In this document: piece by piece, positions 34,067 through 42,321 of the stretch
Layout of the letters: every line of letters begins with the position of its first letter
Numbering within the stretch: the first letter of the stretch is position 1
Virus record (IMG/VR): IMGVR_UViG_3300042887_000125
Span: 1-44,369 of that record
Reading direction: 5' to 3' (one strand)
DNA length: 44,369 nt
Origin: a virus
Translations under genes and position numbers: made by a program
The notes under the pieces: model-generated
Seen by the model: the letters and a program-made list of their open reading frames with translations, nothing else
The model's database searches: none
Told to the model about the DNA's origin: nothing

Positions 34067-34249
34067 ATGTTATTAACCTACAGATATATCAGCAAGAATT
34101 TCTTCGATGTCTTTTGGGGAGATGGTTGGGATAATTGTGCTAGAGTTAAGCGTGGTAGAGATGGTGCTTTTATTATTGTAAGAGCTTTCAAGAAACCACC
34201 AAGAGATTTGCTAGAAACTTTAAAGGGAGCTGTCAATGAAACCGTATAG
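34067..34249 (+). CDS. Small conserved phage protein (60 aa)
   Basis: 60 residues from ATG 34067, with AAGGAG seven bases upstream (TTG 34043 in frame is less likely). It begins MLLTYRYISKNFFDVFWGDGW, a pattern I remember in small proteins of other phages. Basic in the second half. It overlaps the amidoligase gene by 14 bases, so it may be co-expressed with that operon. Confidence 0.7.
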   Translation: MLLTYRYISKNFFDVFWGDGWDNCARVKRGRDGAFIIVRAFKKPPRDLLETLKGAVNETV

Positions 34250-35798
34250 TTTTAGTGATTTTAACAAACGCTTTAATATGTTTGGATGGTTACATCCTGA
34301 TATTCGTCAAACATATTGGACTAAAGAAGATACATCTTGGGATTATGAATCACAATCTCAAGTGCGTAGAACTTATACCTTGTCTACACTTTGGTATAAT
34401 GATCAACGAGTATTGCAGTTCTATACCAACGATGAGACTAATAAAAGCAGACGACTAACTGCTTATAATGTACATCGTGAAGCTGCTAAAGAGTTAGGTC
34501 TTATAAACCAACAGAGTTATAGAACTAATCCAAGCACTGTCATAGATGCATTATACTATCGTGTTAATGCCCCAAACTATTACAATAAAGATGGTACTGT
34601 AAAGAAAGGTTTTTGGGGTGCACTAAGAAGACGACTTCGTTCTAATGCATTGAGACCTAGCTGGGTTACTGAACACATGTTAAAAGAAGGTGTTGAAATA
34701 GCTCGTGCTAATTACCCAGGCAGTAGTTCAGAAACATTAGAAGACTATCTTACTAGTAAAGATATACCAAGTTGGTCTTACTATAAAGATGCATTAGTTG
34801 GTGACTATCGTGTTGATGGTGATAGCAGACGAGTAAAACTTGGTAGTACACAATGGCAACTCATTCATAAAAGTACAGATCCAAGGGCTTTTGGATATAC
34901 CTTTAATGAACGATATGACATCTGGCTTAGAGCTGATCAATTCTTTCACGATGGTAATGTTTATAATCGTAGTGAAGTAGACATTGTAGAATGTTCACAA
35001 TGTCATAATGAATCAGTATCTGAACTATGCATTGATGGTGTATGTCATCACTGTCTTGATGCATCATTCAAGATTCATAACTATTCTACTCGTGTAGAAA
35101 GTATGCTTAAGTTCAAGGCTACTCGCGTTAGACCTAACACTGTGTATCTTGGTTGTGAATTAGAATATGAAACAAACAATCGTAATCGTGCACAACTTGG
35201 TGTTGGTAAACTAATGCATGGTCATGCTCTTATGAAATCAGATGGTTCAATTCGTAATGGTTTTGAGATTGTAACTTGTCCTGCTACATTGGACATTCAC
35301 TTACAAGTATTCAAATCTTTCTTTGATAACTTACCACCTGATCTTAAAATAGAAAAGAATGTAGGTATGCATGTGCACATCAGTCGGAAACCCTTGAGCC
35401 ACTTGACTCTTGGCAAACTAACTGAGTTTCTTAATCGTCAAGATAATAAACAATTCATTGCACATATTGCAGGTCGCATAGATAATAACTATGCTCGTAT
35501 GGATAATGGAAGAACAGTTACTTATCCTTGGCGTAATCGTAATGGTGGTGATAGATACAATGCACTCAATCTAAACAATCAGAATACAGTAGAAGTTAGA
35601 TTGTTTGCTACACCTATGAACTACAAAGAGTTTGCATCTCGCTTACAATTTGTTCAAGCATTGGTAGACTACTGCATGCCTGCCCAATCTAATGAGTGTC
35701 TAAAGAAACAAACTCATTACGAAGCATTTGTAGATTGGTTATCTAGTAGGAAGCGTATGTTCCCAGAACTTAGTTATCATTTAAAGGAGTTTGTATAA
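34236..35798 (+). CDS. Amidoligase-family enzyme with zinc knuckle
   Basis: 520 residues. Residues about 300-490 resemble the putative amidoligase (COOH-NH2 ligase, glutamine synthetase-like fold): GCELEYE at 306-312, KSDGSIRNGFEIVTCP at 334-349, GMHVHIS at 377-383 and NTVEVRLF near 450, which would bind ATP/Mg and substrate. Before it lies a cysteine cluster, C253-x2-C256, C265, C270-x2-C273, likely a zinc ribbon. The first 240 residues are not recognised. It is followed directly by a glutamine amidotransferase and an ATP-grasp ligase, indicating peptide-bond-type ligation of an unknown substrate. Confidence 0.8.
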   Translation: MKPYSFSDFNKRFNMFGWLHPDIRQTYWTKEDTSWDYESQSQVRRTYTLSTLWYNDQRVLQFYTNDETNKSRRLTAYNVHREAAKELGLINQQSYRTNPSTVIDALYYRVNAPNYYNKDGTVKKGFWGALRRRLRSNALRPSWVTEHMLKEGVEIARANYPGSSSETLEDYLTSKDIPSWSYYKDALVGDYRVDGDSRRVKLGSTQWQLIHKSTDPRAFGYTFNERYDIWLRADQFFHDGNVYNRSEVDIVECSQCHNESVSELCIDGVCHHCLDASFKIHNYSTRVESMLKFKATRVRPNTVYLGCELEYETNNRNRAQLGVGKLMHGHALMKSDGSIRNGFEIVTCPATLDIHLQVFKSFFDNLPPDLKIEKNVGMHVHISRKPLSHLTLGKLTEFLNRQDNKQFIAHIAGRIDNNYARMDNGRTVTYPWRNRNGGDRYNALNLNNQNTVEVRLFATPMNYKEFASRLQFVQALVDYCMPAQSNECLKKQTHYEAFVDWLSSRKRMFPELSYHLKEFV

Positions 35799-36730
35799 TG
35801 TGTATTGCAATTTATAAACCTGAAGGTAAGGTATTACCTATCGAAACATTAAAAGAATGTTATACATCTAATCCAGATGGTGCTGGATTTATGTATTCAG
35901 ATAATAAGAAACTTCATATTGAAAAAGGTTTCTTTAGTTTTCAAACTTTCTATGATGCATTTAAGAAACATGAAAACAAACAAGCAGTAATTCACTTTAG
36001 GATTAAGACTCATGGTAAAATTGATACAGCAAATTGTCATCCCTTTGCAGTTAATAATGCAATTGGTTTCGTCCATAATGGTATTATTAGTGGCTATGGT
36101 GATGCTGAGTTCAGTGATACTGTTAGATTCAATGAGAAAATCTTACGCCCTTTGGTTAGTAAGTGGGGCAACCTTGCTCTATTTCAAGACCCTATAATTG
36201 AATTAGTAGAAGGTCGTATTGGATACAGTAAGCTTGTGTTCCTTGATAGACATGGCAATCATAAGATTATGAATGAGTCTAAAGGTATATGGGATGATGG
36301 TGTATGGTATTCTAACGATAGTTATAAACCTTATGTTGCACCTATAACTACTTCTTCTTGGAAAGATTTAGATTATAAGTATGGTAACTGGCGTAAACCT
36401 GTAGCTACATACAAAACACAAGTAACAATACCTAAGTCTAAAGTAGTGGCAGTAGGTGCAATGGTAGAATTACTAGAAGATACTGCTGATCCTGCTACTC
36501 TTAAAGTATATGAAACAGGTGAGCTTTGTGAGATCGTTGCAGTTAACAAAGACTTTACATGTGATCTAATGCATGAAGATTATAAAGGTAACAGTGGCTT
36601 TCTTTATAATGTTCCTTATCATTCTTTATCTTTTGTAGATGAGTTTGAAGATGACTCTATTGATCCTGTAGGTGTACCTGCATATCAACAATATGCATCA
36701 CCTTATTTATTAAAAGGAAAATCTAAATGA
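35798..36730 (+). CDS. Class II glutamine amidotransferase
   Basis: 310 residues. Cys2, exposed after removal of Met1 (MCIAIYKPEG), is the Ntn-hydrolase nucleophile. DGAGFMY, IHFRIKTHG and FVHNGIISGYG are the usual binding elements of GAT-II/YafJ-like domains, which hydrolyse glutamine to supply ammonia. Residues from about 190 on are variable. The start overlaps the amidoligase stop (TAATG). With the neighbours it would supply ammonia or act as a transferase/peptidase in the same pathway. Confidence 0.85.
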   Translation: MCIAIYKPEGKVLPIETLKECYTSNPDGAGFMYSDNKKLHIEKGFFSFQTFYDAFKKHENKQAVIHFRIKTHGKIDTANCHPFAVNNAIGFVHNGIISGYGDAEFSDTVRFNEKILRPLVSKWGNLALFQDPIIELVEGRIGYSKLVFLDRHGNHKIMNESKGIWDDGVWYSNDSYKPYVAPITTSSWKDLDYKYGNWRKPVATYKTQVTIPKSKVVAVGAMVELLEDTADPATLKVYETGELCEIVAVNKDFTCDLMHEDYKGNSGFLYNVPYHSLSFVDEFEDDSIDPVGVPAYQQYASPYLLKGKSK

Positions 36731-37479
36731 GTCTAAAGATATTTCCTTACAAAGTTGGAAGTATATCAGCTAAAAGATTGGCTAGATCCCTTGGTATTCT
36801 AAGGATTCGGCCAACCTATAATGCTAGACGTAAAGATGTTATAGTTAATTGGGGTAGTTCTACACCACCACACTTTAGGTGGATGGAACAAGATCTCAAT
36901 AAGCCACATGCTATTGCATTAGCTAGTAATAAACTAAATACTTTTTTAGAGTATCGTACTAAATCTTTTATACATGTACCACAATGGACTACTAATCCTA
37001 GTGAAGCACAACACTGGCTTGACTTAGGATTAAAAACTTATTGTCGTAAACTACTATCATCCCATAGTGGTAATGGTATTGTTGTATGTAATGCTGGAGA
37101 CACTCTTATATCTGCACCATTATATACATTACATACTAAACACAAAGATGAGTATCGTGTTCACATTTTTAAAGGAGAAGTATTAGATGTTCAAAAGAAA
37201 AAAAGAAAATTGGGATTTAATGGATCTTCTTCAGGTATTCGTAATCATTCTAGTGGCTGGGTATACGCTAGAACTGATGTTGCAATACCTGATATGCTAT
37301 GCCCCATTGCTATTCAAGCAGTAGAGATACTTGGCTTAGACTTCGGTGCTGTAGACATAGGTCACAAAGTTAATGATAATAAATTCTTTGTGTTCGAAGT
37401 TAATACTGCACCAGGTCTTGAAGGATCTACGCTTGACAAATATACAAAAGCAATATACAATTACTATAGGAGTCTATAA
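36727..37479 (+). CDS. ATP-grasp ligase
   Basis: 250 residues. The C-terminal half shows the ATP-grasp pattern: DEYRVHIFKGEVL followed by KKKR, DFGAVDIG and FEVNTAPG with metal-binding E224 and N226, then GSTLDKY. RimK-like and related ligases join a carboxylate to an amine using ATP. The start overlaps the amidotransferase stop (ATGA). Third member of the predicted ligation module. Confidence 0.87.
   Translation: MSLKIFPYKVGSISAKRLARSLGILRIRPTYNARRKDVIVNWGSSTPPHFRWMEQDLNKPHAIALASNKLNTFLEYRTKSFIHVPQWTTNPSEAQHWLDLGLKTYCRKLLSSHSGNGIVVCNAGDTLISAPLYTLHTKHKDEYRVHIFKGEVLDVQKKKRKLGFNGSSSGIRNHSSGWVYARTDVAIPDMLCPIAIQAVEILGLDFGAVDIGHKVNDNKFFVFEVNTAPGLEGSTLDKYTKAIYNYYRSL
37433..37461 (+). promoter_or_regulatory. 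Possible internal sigma70 promoter
   Basis: TTGACA (37433-37438), 17 bases, TACAAT (37456-37461), inside the end of the ATP-grasp gene and 20 bases before the next start. It lacks the TG extension of the five main promoters, so it is a weaker candidate. Confidence 0.45.
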
Positions 37480-37974: not shown

Positions 37975-38175
37975 ATGAGATGTATTGCTTGTAATAAAAA
38001 CTTAAATGACTTTGAGTCTACTCGTAAGTCAATAATATCTGGTGAATATTTAGACTTATGTAACACATGTTTTCATCAAGTAGAACAAGATATCCCTGCT
38101 AAAGAACGCGATGATCTGCGTTCAGAAGAAGAGACATTTGATGATGATACTGATGAACTAATAGATCCACTATGA
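37975..38175 (+). CDS. Small zinc-finger protein (66 aa)
   Basis: 66 residues with CIAC at 3-6 and CNTC at 29-32, a four-cysteine zinc site, followed by an acidic tail. MRCIACNK...FESTRK is familiar from T7-like phages. It might bind nucleic acid or a host protein. Last rightward gene before the antisense pqqA. Confidence 0.75.
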   Translation: MRCIACNKNLNDFESTRKSIISGEYLDLCNTCFHQVEQDIPAKERDDLRSEEETFDDDTDELIDPL

Positions 38176-38207
38176 TTGTCCGCAACGCTGTGAGCGTAGT
38201 CGGCAAT
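38175..38207. terminator. Hairpin between zinc-finger gene and antisense pqqA
   Basis: ATTG-CCG (38175-38182, with a bulged T) pairs with CGGCAAT (38201-38207), and ACGCT (38185-38189) with AGCGT (38193-38197). The hairpin sits between the stop codons of two converging genes. The + strand has ATTTATTTATT about 10 bases later, not directly adjacent, so termination strength is unclear. Confidence 0.5.
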
Positions 38208-38216
38208 CTAGGGGAT

Positions 38217-38288
38217 TTATTTATTCATTACGTACATTGTTACTTCGAAGCCAAAACGCATTTCAGTAGCTGCTGGTTTAGTCCACAT
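38217..38288 (-). CDS. pqqA: PqqA, pyrroloquinoline quinone precursor peptide (23 aa)
   Basis: A 23-codon ORF on the strand opposite the early operon. It starts MWTKP and contains [10 protein letters not shown] at 10-19. E15 and Y19 are exactly the residues cross-linked in known 23-residue PqqA peptides to become PQQ, and the length is the same. AAAGGAA lies upstream of the ATG, and a promoter is at 38338-38366. PQQ is the cofactor of methanol and glucose dehydrogenases; host PqqB-F would be needed because none is encoded here. It probably supports host methylotrophic energy supply during infection. No other explanation fits the pattern equally well. Confidence 0.9.
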
Positions 38289-38337
38289 AATAGTTTCCTT
38301 TATAAAAGTTAATATAGAATTTTCATTCTATACAAGT

Positions 38338-38366
38338 ATTATAACATAATGAATGAAAACTGTCAT
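38338..38366 (-). promoter_or_regulatory. Dedicated leftward promoter of pqqA
   Basis: On the - strand: ATGACA (38361-38366), 17 bases, TATAAT (38338-38343), with extended TG (TGTTATAAT). Expected start near 38331 gives a leader of about 40 bases to the pqqA ATG. Only one mismatch to consensus. Confidence 0.8.
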
Positions 38367-38399
38367 GTGTGTAACACCTAACCTTACCTAAGGATTATC

Positions 38400-39092
38400 A
38401 TTAGTAAATTTATACAACATACCTCTTGTCCCAAATGTGGCTCACGGGATAATCTTGCAGAGTATGATGACCATGTATGGTGCTTTGGTTGTAAGTATTA
38501 CAAACTAAAGAACGATATACAATCTATTCGAAACAGATTGCAGAGTCAGCAGACGATGCTATCTGATGAGATTACTCTTGACTTAACTACTGATATTCCT
38601 ATGAAAGCTAAGCAATGGTTACTTAAGTATGGCATTACTAATGAAGAGATAGGGCAAAATAATATTGCGTATAACGCAAATTCTGACATACTTGTTTTGC
38701 TACACACGCAAAATTACTGGCAAGGTAGATGCTTTGGTGATCAACATCAAAAGTATTTATCTAAAGGTAATAAGCCTTTGACAATCTATGGTAATGGTGA
38801 TACAATTGTATGTGTGGAAGATGTTTTATCTGCAATTAAAATTGCTAGACTTTCACCAGACTATTGTGCAACACCGCTACTTGGTAGTAGTATGTCTCTA
38901 GAAACTACACAATCACTCTCAGAACGATTTAAAAAGATTCTGATATGGTTGGATAGGGATAAGGCTAAAGAAGCGATTAGGATATCAAGAAACTTAAAAC
39001 AGAGGGGTATATTAGTTGATGTTGTTATCTCACCTAAAGATCCTAAAGATTATGAGAAAGGGGAAATCATTACTTGGTTGAAGAACAGATAA
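38400..39092 (+). CDS. DNA primase (T7 gp4 primase-half), non-ATG start
   Basis: A zinc-binding domain followed by TOPRIM. Reading from ATT 38400 gives 230 residues with CPKC at 10-13 and CFGC at 28-31, then E140 in VCVEDVLSA and DRD at 185-187 as TOPRIM metal ligands. The first ATG in frame is 38538, which would remove the zinc domain needed for template recognition. In frame, a stop lies shortly before 38400 and no ATG/GTG/TTG exists between. AAGGA at 38390-38394 is well placed for ATT 38400. Synthesises RNA primers for replication. The helicase half is a separate overlapping gene. Confidence 0.83.
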   Translation: MSKFIQHTSCPKCGSRDNLAEYDDHVWCFGCKYYKLKNDIQSIRNRLQSQQTMLSDEITLDLTTDIPMKAKQWLLKYGITNEEIGQNNIAYNANSDILVLLHTQNYWQGRCFGDQHQKYLSKGNKPLTIYGNGDTIVCVEDVLSAIKIARLSPDYCATPLLGSSMSLETTQSLSERFKKILIWLDRDKAKEAIRISRNLKQRGILVDVVISPKDPKDYEKGEIITWLKNR

Positions 39093-40315: not shown

Positions 40316-40463
40316 TGCAACAGTCCAAGACATTTTAGAATTTGATGATAGTTTATCTGTTGAAGAAGCAGAAGATCTCTTGCTTTTTTCTAATGAAAAT
40401 GATACAATAGAAGAAGCAATAGATAAATTTTATGGGGAACCTCGCGGAGAATGCGCTACTTAA
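40302..40463 (+). CDS. Small acidic protein (53 aa)
   Basis: A 53-codon ORF overlapping the helicase end by 14 bases and the polymerase start by 13. It is very acidic (VEEAEDLL, NDTIEEAID). GGAGATAG precedes the ATG. No family recognised. Its location suggests a replication accessory or antirestriction role, without direct evidence. Confidence 0.65.
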   Translation: MKIYNATVQDILEFDDSLSVEEAEDLLLFSNENDTIEEAIDKFYGEPRGECAT

Positions 40464-41596
40464 CTCTTGATGTTGAAACAACAATATCTAACAAGGGAAA
40501 TCCCTTTGATAGAACTAATAAACTTTGTTACATAGGAACTACAAATGGATTATACAGTATTGAATACGATGATGCTCCGTATAAAACTAAACTTGATACG
40601 GTGCAGGATCAAATTAATATATGCGAACTTCTGGTTGGGTTCAATATTAAATTCGATTTACACTGGCTCAAACGTTATCAAATAAACTTTACTGACAAAA
40701 GGATATGGGACTGTCAATTAGTCCACTTCATATTAACTGGACAATCAGATCCCTATCCTAGTCTTAATAAAGTATGTGAGTATTACGGATTAGAATCTAA
40801 GTTAGACATAGTAGCAGAAGAATACTGGAAGAATAAGATTGATACACCTGATATCCCTGAAGAAATCCTTAAGGAATATCTAGCACAAGATATCAAACTA
40901 ACTGAACAAGTATATCTTAAACAACTAAAACAGATAGAAACTGTACCTCATTTAAAAAGACTGATTAGTTTACATAATCAAGATCTATTAGTCTTACAAG
41001 AAATGGAGTTTAATGGTCTTCTATATGATACTAAACAAAGTATTAATGAAGGAGAAAAACTTGAACGAGAAATTGATAGACTTGATGAATGGCTTTTTGC
41101 GTACCATAATTGCCCTGGCTTTAATCCCAATAGTACTGATCACCTTAGTGCTTTCTTATATGGTGGGGACATCAGCCTTAAGCATAGAGTGGTTATCGGG
41201 ACTTTTAAGACTGGCAGTAGATCAGGTCAACCCAAGGAACGATGGGAAGACTACACAGTCTCTTTCCCAAGACTCGTAAATCCTTTAAAAGGATCTGAGT
41301 TAATGAAAGAAGGGTTATACTCTACAGATGAGAATACTCTTAAGTCGTTACGAGGTTCTAAACAAGCTAAAGAAATAATTGAGACTCTACTCTTTCGCTC
41401 TACACTAGAGAAAAGATTGTCAACATATTATGAAGGATTAGTTAATTTAATTAAGCAACTTAACTGGGATGAAGGAATGATATACGGACAACTTAATCAA
41501 TGTGTAGCTAGGACAGGAAGACTATCGTCTAGTAAACCTAACCTACAAAACTTTGATGGAGAAATCAAGTCCTTGTTTACTTCAAGGTATAACTAA
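40451..41596 (+). CDS. DNA polymerase A, part 1: 3'-5' exonuclease and thumb
   Basis: 381 residues. DVETT (D7, E9), GFNIKFDLHWL (D69) and YLAQDIKL (D147) are the proofreading exonuclease motifs. From about 160 on lies the polymerase thumb, ending with RTGRLSSSKPNLQN, the conserved template-binding motif just before polymerase motif A. The ORF then stops; motif A continues in the next gene. TAATG joins the two. Together the halves equal a normal T7-like polymerase. ATG 40451 lies after GGAG. Confidence 0.9.
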   Translation: MRYLTLDVETTISNKGNPFDRTNKLCYIGTTNGLYSIEYDDAPYKTKLDTVQDQINICELLVGFNIKFDLHWLKRYQINFTDKRIWDCQLVHFILTGQSDPYPSLNKVCEYYGLESKLDIVAEEYWKNKIDTPDIPEEILKEYLAQDIKLTEQVYLKQLKQIETVPHLKRLISLHNQDLLVLQEMEFNGLLYDTKQSINEGEKLEREIDRLDEWLFAYHNCPGFNPNSTDHLSAFLYGGDISLKHRVVIGTFKTGSRSGQPKERWEDYTVSFPRLVNPLKGSELMKEGLYSTDENTLKSLRGSKQAKEIIETLLFRSTLEKRLSTYYEGLVNLIKQLNWDEGMIYGQLNQCVARTGRLSSSKPNLQNFDGEIKSLFTSRYN

Positions 41597-42321
41597 TGTT
41601 ATTACAAGCAGATGCTAAGCAATTGGAATGGGTTGGTGCTACTTATTTATCTCAGGATCAGACTGCATTAAAGGAGATCTGGGATAGTGTTGATCAACAT
41701 TCAGACAACCAAAAACGATTTGGGTTACCAAGTAGACTTATTGCTAAAACATTCGTATTCAGACTTATCTACGGAGGATCTGCATACTCTTATGCGAATG
41801 ATCCAAACTTTAAAGATATTGGCAACGAAAGGTTCTGGCAAGGAGTTATAGATCAGTTCTATGATAAGTATAAAGGTTTACGAGACTGGCATACTAGGAT
41901 TCTTAATGACGCTAAACGTGATAGAAAACTAATCATGCCTACTGGTAGAACTTATTACTATGAACCTGAAGTTAAGTATAATAAAGTAGAATGGCCACGC
42001 ACCAAGATCCTTAACTATCCAGTGCAAGGACTTGGAGCGGACCTTATGGCTATTGCAAGGGTAAGTTTAAGAAATAGATTATTAAATAAGGAAGGAGTAA
42101 AACTTGTTAATACTGTACATGATTCAATAATACTTGACTTTGATTCCAAAGTATGGGATAATATTAGTATAGTAAATTTAGTAGATAAATGTTTCAACGA
42201 TATACCAGGTAATTTTAAGAAGTTATTTGGTAAAGACTTTAACCTACCCATGAGAGTGGAATGCCAAGTAGGATCCACATGGGGAAATATGGAGATTATA
42301 AATGCAAATTACAGTGATTGA
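41596..42321 (+). CDS. DNA polymerase A, part 2: palm and fingers
   Basis: 241 residues. Motif A is DAKQLEW with D6, motif B is R47-x3-K51-x7-YG at 59-60, and motif C is VHDS at 174-177 (D176). These are the catalytic elements of family A polymerases. It must assemble with the product of the preceding gene. Its frame is closed by a TAA two codons before its ATG, so it is not reached by a simple frameshift. Length fits the missing C-terminal third. Confidence 0.9.
   Translation: MLLQADAKQLEWVGATYLSQDQTALKEIWDSVDQHSDNQKRFGLPSRLIAKTFVFRLIYGGSAYSYANDPNFKDIGNERFWQGVIDQFYDKYKGLRDWHTRILNDAKRDRKLIMPTGRTYYYEPEVKYNKVEWPRTKILNYPVQGLGADLMAIARVSLRNRLLNKEGVKLVNTVHDSIILDFDSKVWDNISIVNLVDKCFNDIPGNFKKLFGKDFNLPMRVECQVGSTWGNMEIINANYSD

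Follow-up and report, generated by a model that had tools for sequence, protein, structure and literature searches.

Why would a phage carry the gene for a peptide of only 23 residues, set against the direction of its neighbours, and what would switch that gene on? PqqA is a 23-residue peptide in which Glu15 and Tyr19 are joined and excised to form the cofactor PQQ, and PQQ synthesis consumes one PqqA for each PQQ made, with PqqB–E acting as catalysts. In a virus record of 44,369 bases, the whole of which we analysed and refer to as the window, an open reading frame on the minus strand (38217–38288) runs for 23 codons from an ATG start to a TAA stop. The encoded peptide scores about twice the cut-off of both curated PqqA models, reaching 42.4 bits against 21.1 for Pfam PF08042 and 40.4 bits against 20 for the NCBIfam equivalog TIGR02107, and it contains the Glu-X3-Tyr pair (E15 and Y19), which is invariant across seven phage copies from different phage types. 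These results bear out the original prediction of a complete PqqA precursor with E15 and Y19. The amino-acid sequence is that of the common host form. A plus-strand open reading frame (38172–38312) overlaps pqqA and has nothing in its favour.

Both neighbours of pqqA lie on the plus strand, opposite to it, as had been predicted. One is a 66-amino-acid open reading frame of unassigned function (37975–38175) that is convergent with pqqA, and the other is a DNA primase with zinc finger and Toprim domains (38400–39092; phrog_47). The listed primase open reading frame starts at a TTG at 38538, and the frame is open upstream through the zinc finger to an apparent ATT start at 38400–38402, where several homologues have ATG. 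As a host-like gene with its own predicted promoter, placed between phage genes, pqqA has the makeup of a moron or auxiliary metabolic gene. Further window genes include a DnaB-type helicase, a family A DNA polymerase, a terminase and a tail-fibre or virion protein. The polymerase (40451–42321) is divided over two overlapping open reading frames, 40451–41596 and 41596–42321, that both match PF00476, and the split may be real or a sequencing error. A three-gene block at 34236–37479 resembles an amidoligase, a glutamine amidotransferase-like protein and an S6 glutaminyl-transferase-type ligase. None of 20 of the larger window open reading frames compared with Pfam is a PQQ biosynthesis gene or a dehydrogenase, and processing of the phage PqqA therefore most likely relies on the host. 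An Rfam search of the window gave no match at E up to 1, and a near-identity DNA search with its early region gave no match in phage records.

The large terminase of the window is 78–79% identical over 99% of its length to those of MEP401 and MEP402, two phages of the Zobellviridae whose isolation host was an OM43 bacterium (PMC10580990), in agreement with the proposal that this is a phage of a methylotroph. Placed by its terminase alone, the window phage groups with phages of methylotrophs and appears to belong to the OM43-phage branch of Zobellviridae.

Phage PqqA was reported in 2020 from Methylophilaceae phages of Lake Baikal (PMC7678222), and pqqA figures in a list of viral genes (PMC13188868). 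The original prediction spoke of a few phages with the gene; we find it to be widespread in phages of Methylophilales. A tblastn search with the peptide matched the isolates Venkman, P19250A, MEP301, MEP401 and MEP402, four Melnitz isolates and one spring-water podovirus, and at least 589 confirmed stretches in IMG/VR carry pqqA, which is spread over several unrelated phage groups. In none of these isolates is pqqA annotated, and in published OM43 and LD28 phages it is unannotated or misannotated; Melnitz-1 and the spring-water phage have an opposite-strand hypothetical protein called over it. The gene mostly escapes annotation because it is 23 codons long, and the searched text of papers on OM43 phage isolates, that on MEP401 and MEP402 included (PMC10580990), makes no mention of a phage pqq gene. 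The Melnitz-1 copy (MZ577095, L007:4995–5069) encodes a PqqA of 24 amino acids that begins MKWTKP. Matches in a contig named 'Acinetobacter phage MD-2021a' (L008, CAKLQF020000010) were rejected as phage pqqA: there an unannotated pqqA is followed by pqqB, pqqC, pqqD and a pqqE-like radical SAM gene beside ppk, a chromosomal-looking set, and the contig probably represents bacterial DNA under a phage label. Among hosts, pqqA is present in 80 of 80 Methylophilaceae genomes and in more than one copy in 78 (median 4, maximum 12), consistent with the multi-copy pqqA already described for this family (PMC4109929). Phage pqqA itself is already known, and the new element is its captured promoter of host PQQ genes.

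To follow the locus through evolution, close relatives were chosen by their primase, so that pqqA had no part in the selection of relatives. In every one of the 18 relatives whose primase is at least 73% identical and whose upstream sequence is long enough to read, pqqA precedes the primase on the opposite strand, and the loss of the gene in close relatives that could have spoken against the original prediction was looked for and not seen. At 49–63% primase identity, pqqA is nearby in roughly half of the relatives. Across 28 non-redundant copies the gene is under purifying selection, with pS of 0.46, pN of 0.065 and pN/pS of 0.14.

A near-consensus promoter lies where it had been predicted on the minus strand, with a −35 element ATGACA (38366–38361), a 17-bp spacer and an extended −10 element TATAAT (38343–38338), together matching the consensus at 11 of 12 positions and placing the predicted transcript start near 38331. 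Promoter-like sites are as frequent in the AT-rich window as in shuffled sequence (58 found, 58.4 expected), and on its own the pqqA site is unremarkable; its −10 element is nearly invariant in relatives and is kept at a fixed distance from a palindrome further upstream. A ribosome binding site AAGGA is found at 38300–38296, also as predicted, and AAGGA or AGGAG is kept in relatives. Where the mRNA is predicted to begin, a hairpin (38312–38333, minus strand) with a 9-bp stem, counting one G–U pair, and a GAAA loop is maintained through paired base changes among relatives, and its folding energy in the window alone is not unusual (z −1.1). We therefore expect pqqA to be expressed leftward from its own σ70-type promoter, as an mRNA that would bear this hairpin at its 5′ end.

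Past the pqqA stop codon, between the convergent genes, a strong hairpin spans 38160–38221 and folds on both strands, with −23.5 kcal/mol (z −5.9) on the minus strand and −27.2 kcal/mol (z −5.2) on the plus strand. It has no T run in the window, and in the relatives L320, L340 and L349 a hairpin is followed by T. This hairpin is likely a 3′ end or terminator element serving both strands, and with the 5′ hairpin it would fit a stabilised, insulated small pqqA mRNA. The window and five relatives at the same place (L300, L301, L303, L304 and L305) have constant flanks (CTAGATTGCCGAC...GCGGACAATCATAG) around an inner stem that changes in sequence without loss of pairing between its arms.

The palindrome upstream of the promoter leads to the host. 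An unsupervised motif search, run on viral and on host pqqA upstream regions, returned one motif from each set, and both are the same palindrome, with log-likelihoods of 464 (viral) and 505 (host) against 67–75 in shuffles. In host genomes this sequence, CTMATGA-WWW-TCATKAG, lies upstream of most pqqA copies and of the pqqB operon, typically 61–62 bp before the −10 element. When each half of the viral set was held out in turn, the palindrome exceeded the 99% null in 90% of viral upstream regions; with a stricter, symmetric matrix derived from hosts, 75% of host and 43% of viral upstream regions pass the same null, a low viral rate that suggests that the phage palindrome has drifted or is bound differently. 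The distance from palindrome to −10 peaks at 61–62 bp in hosts and has its main peak at 39 bp (38 in host numbering) in phages, placing the palindrome centre near −65 and −42, respectively. These are the usual positions of activators. In a scan of the complete genome of OM43 strain LSUCC0665, ten places combine a strong palindrome with a correctly placed −10; of the four best-scoring sites, one lies ahead of a pqqA, one ahead of the pqqB operon and one ahead of the tandem pqqA pair. The core of the palindrome looks like AATGA-WWW-TCATT and in this resembles a Fur box; the location of the sites near −42 and −65, where activators usually sit, and the best genome matches, which are pqq genes, lean against that identity. 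Thirty loci around PQQ-dependent dehydrogenases and related matches contained a few moderate sites (at most 15.8 bits, unmapped to promoters), giving no clear support for the palindrome as a general methanol-oxidation operator. From these sequence patterns we infer that the palindrome is a 'PQQ box' marking an apparently undescribed host PQQ regulon, and the literature searched gave no description of the control of PQQ synthesis in Methylophilaceae.

In the window, the palindrome reads CTAATGA-TAA-TCCTTAG on the minus strand (38388–38404) and forms a candidate operator centred near −65. It is the best match in the whole window (19.2 bits by position weight matrix; the next site reaches 12.7), and it lies 61 bp before the pqqA −10, a spacing equal to the host mode and found in 21 of 27 relatives. 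The operator-like sequence and position in the window thus match those of host genes of the PQQ pathway, with weaker sites in distant relatives. The span of the original prediction ended at 38366, taking in the promoter and missing this palindrome. The separate promoter stands, but the independent timing proposed for it is better read as coupling to host PQQ genes through the common palindrome and its spacing. Overall, the earlier interpretation was right in kind, too modest about prevalence and incomplete on control.

We consider it probable that pqqA is a self-contained phage moron that supplies the consumed substrate of PQQ synthesis and is plugged into the host PQQ regulon through the palindrome. 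Under this model the phage would supply PqqA only and the host PqqB–E, so that 72 bases of coding sequence would let the phage raise or maintain PQQ supply and so provide methanol dehydrogenase with its cofactor as host transcription breaks down. Because the promoter bears the palindrome of host pqqA and pqqB at host spacing, the host regulator of PQQ synthesis would be the most likely activator of phage pqqA, and expression would then respond to the signal that the host itself uses for PQQ demand.

The strongest competitor, which we nevertheless regard as unlikely, is that pqqA works from a constitutive promoter and that the palindrome is the ribosome binding site and start of the primase read backwards, with no host regulator involved. 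The near-consensus extended −10 promoter fits this explanation, and with its good −35 and −10 elements it could fire without an activator. The window palindrome indeed overlaps and contains the primase ribosome binding site and start, including the apparent ATT codon. Most telling against control by the host regulon, more so than this double use or the low pass rate of the host matrix, is that the palindrome weakens in distant relatives: in those with pqqA still adjacent to the primase it falls to 5–10 bits, with the −10 element and the distance of 61 bp still in place. However, primase starts of relatives that lack pqqA do not show the palindrome (median 4.5 bits, against 14.2 in relatives with pqqA), and where pqqA has been relocated (L305, L324, L341 and L374) the palindrome accompanies the gene instead of staying at the primase. 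The spacing equal to the host mode and the ceiling of 12.7 bits elsewhere in the window likewise speak against a chance resemblance to a primase start. Since it is absent from relatives without pqqA and travels with the gene, we reject the palindrome as a mere artefact of the primase ribosome binding site as a whole explanation.

A bolder extension of the host-regulon model would have Methylophilaceae phages repeatedly capturing the whole host PQQ-regulon switch, laid over the primase start in the window lineage with an apparent ATT start that fits the palindrome; a host regulator that signals the status of PQQ or methanol could then turn on pqqA and also gate phage replication. We hold this to be a decidedly doubtful proposition.

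It is highly unlikely that the peptide acts as a decoy occupying PqqD or PqqE to slow host PQQ synthesis, or that the transcript acts as antisense RNA on the neighbouring early genes. The antisense position that invites the latter idea is conserved in the window lineage, but an antisense role is not general, because pqqA is in sense or mixed orientation in other phages: its neighbours are both in the same direction in 26 cases, both opposed in 23 and mixed in 25. With co-directional neighbours about as frequent as opposed ones, the antisense layout was rejected as a general rule for phage pqqA. In addition, the peptide keeps all residues of a normal substrate, selection acts on the peptide, and a strong hairpin separates pqqA from the convergent gene. 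That the open reading frame is a recent hitch-hiker or functionless relic, as its amino-acid identity to the common host form might suggest, is hardly credible given that synonymous sites have strongly diverged while the peptide is kept, that relatives with primase identities as low as 49% still keep the gene's position and orientation and that pqqA occurs in several unrelated phage groups.

Outside the window, a separate class of pqqA leader of about 95 nt, a junction-like RNA, is present in some phages (L019:2911–3000, L022:2922–3000, L024:2918–3000, L059:2909–3000, L060:1898–1990 and L064:1061–1150) and some OM43 hosts (L103:3711–3801 and L113:3706–3803). One helix of this structured leader pairs with the Shine–Dalgarno sequence, and a second is paired in 100% of alignment cells and includes four pairs in which both partners have changed; in 500 shuffles, neither the percentage paired nor the covariation score seen for the leader as a whole was ever equalled. 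A model of the leader has one match each in 7 of 80 Methylophilaceae genomes and scores 58–75 bits at six phage loci, of which five belonged to its training alignment, and no Rfam family matched these places. The structured leader could be a new regulatory RNA for pqqA translation. Viral contigs carrying pqqA also contain ROSE_3 RNA thermometer matches (L022:1234–1298 and L024:1411–1477) and a betaproteobacterial tmRNA gene (L059:4464–4818).

Since each PQQ made uses up one PqqA, supplying this peptide would be a very inexpensive way to influence methanol oxidation, and the phages with pqqA that infect abundant methylotrophs of marine and fresh waters point to a common viral route into one-carbon cycling. 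The common palindrome is a concrete, testable candidate for the control of PQQ synthesis in Methylophilaceae, and OM43 phages with pqqA are already in culture, making these proposals directly testable.

The window can be set beside several known systems. If our reading of the palindrome is right, the window joins the phosphate genes of cyanophages as a second example of metabolic genes in phages that answer to host regulation. Like the window, cyanophage genes under PhoBR (pstS of P-SSM2; S-PM2d, PMC10976474) have phage promoters with the site of a host regulator; there, regulator and binding were shown by experiment and concern phosphate, whereas here the site is read from sequence and concerns the PQQ pathway. 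As in the window, the PqqA that the Baikal phages VP_266 and VP_139 encode was predicted to aid the oxidation of methanol by Methylophilaceae, in the consulted part of that report (PMC7678222), which describes no promoter or operator. By the same text, those phages are T4-like and VP_266 also encodes methanol dehydrogenase, whereas the window phage is of Zobellviridae type and carries pqqA alone in its own predicted regulated cassette. MEP401 and MEP402 (PMC10580990) share a related terminase and an unannotated pqqA with the window, but their pqqA lies in a different place and is co-directional with its own downstream genes. A further counterpart is the stand-alone pqqA of Methylophilaceae (PMC4109929), a single gene with the same peptide, the same palindrome and the same spacing, from which the window copy differs in residing on a phage genome, between a small open reading frame and the primase.
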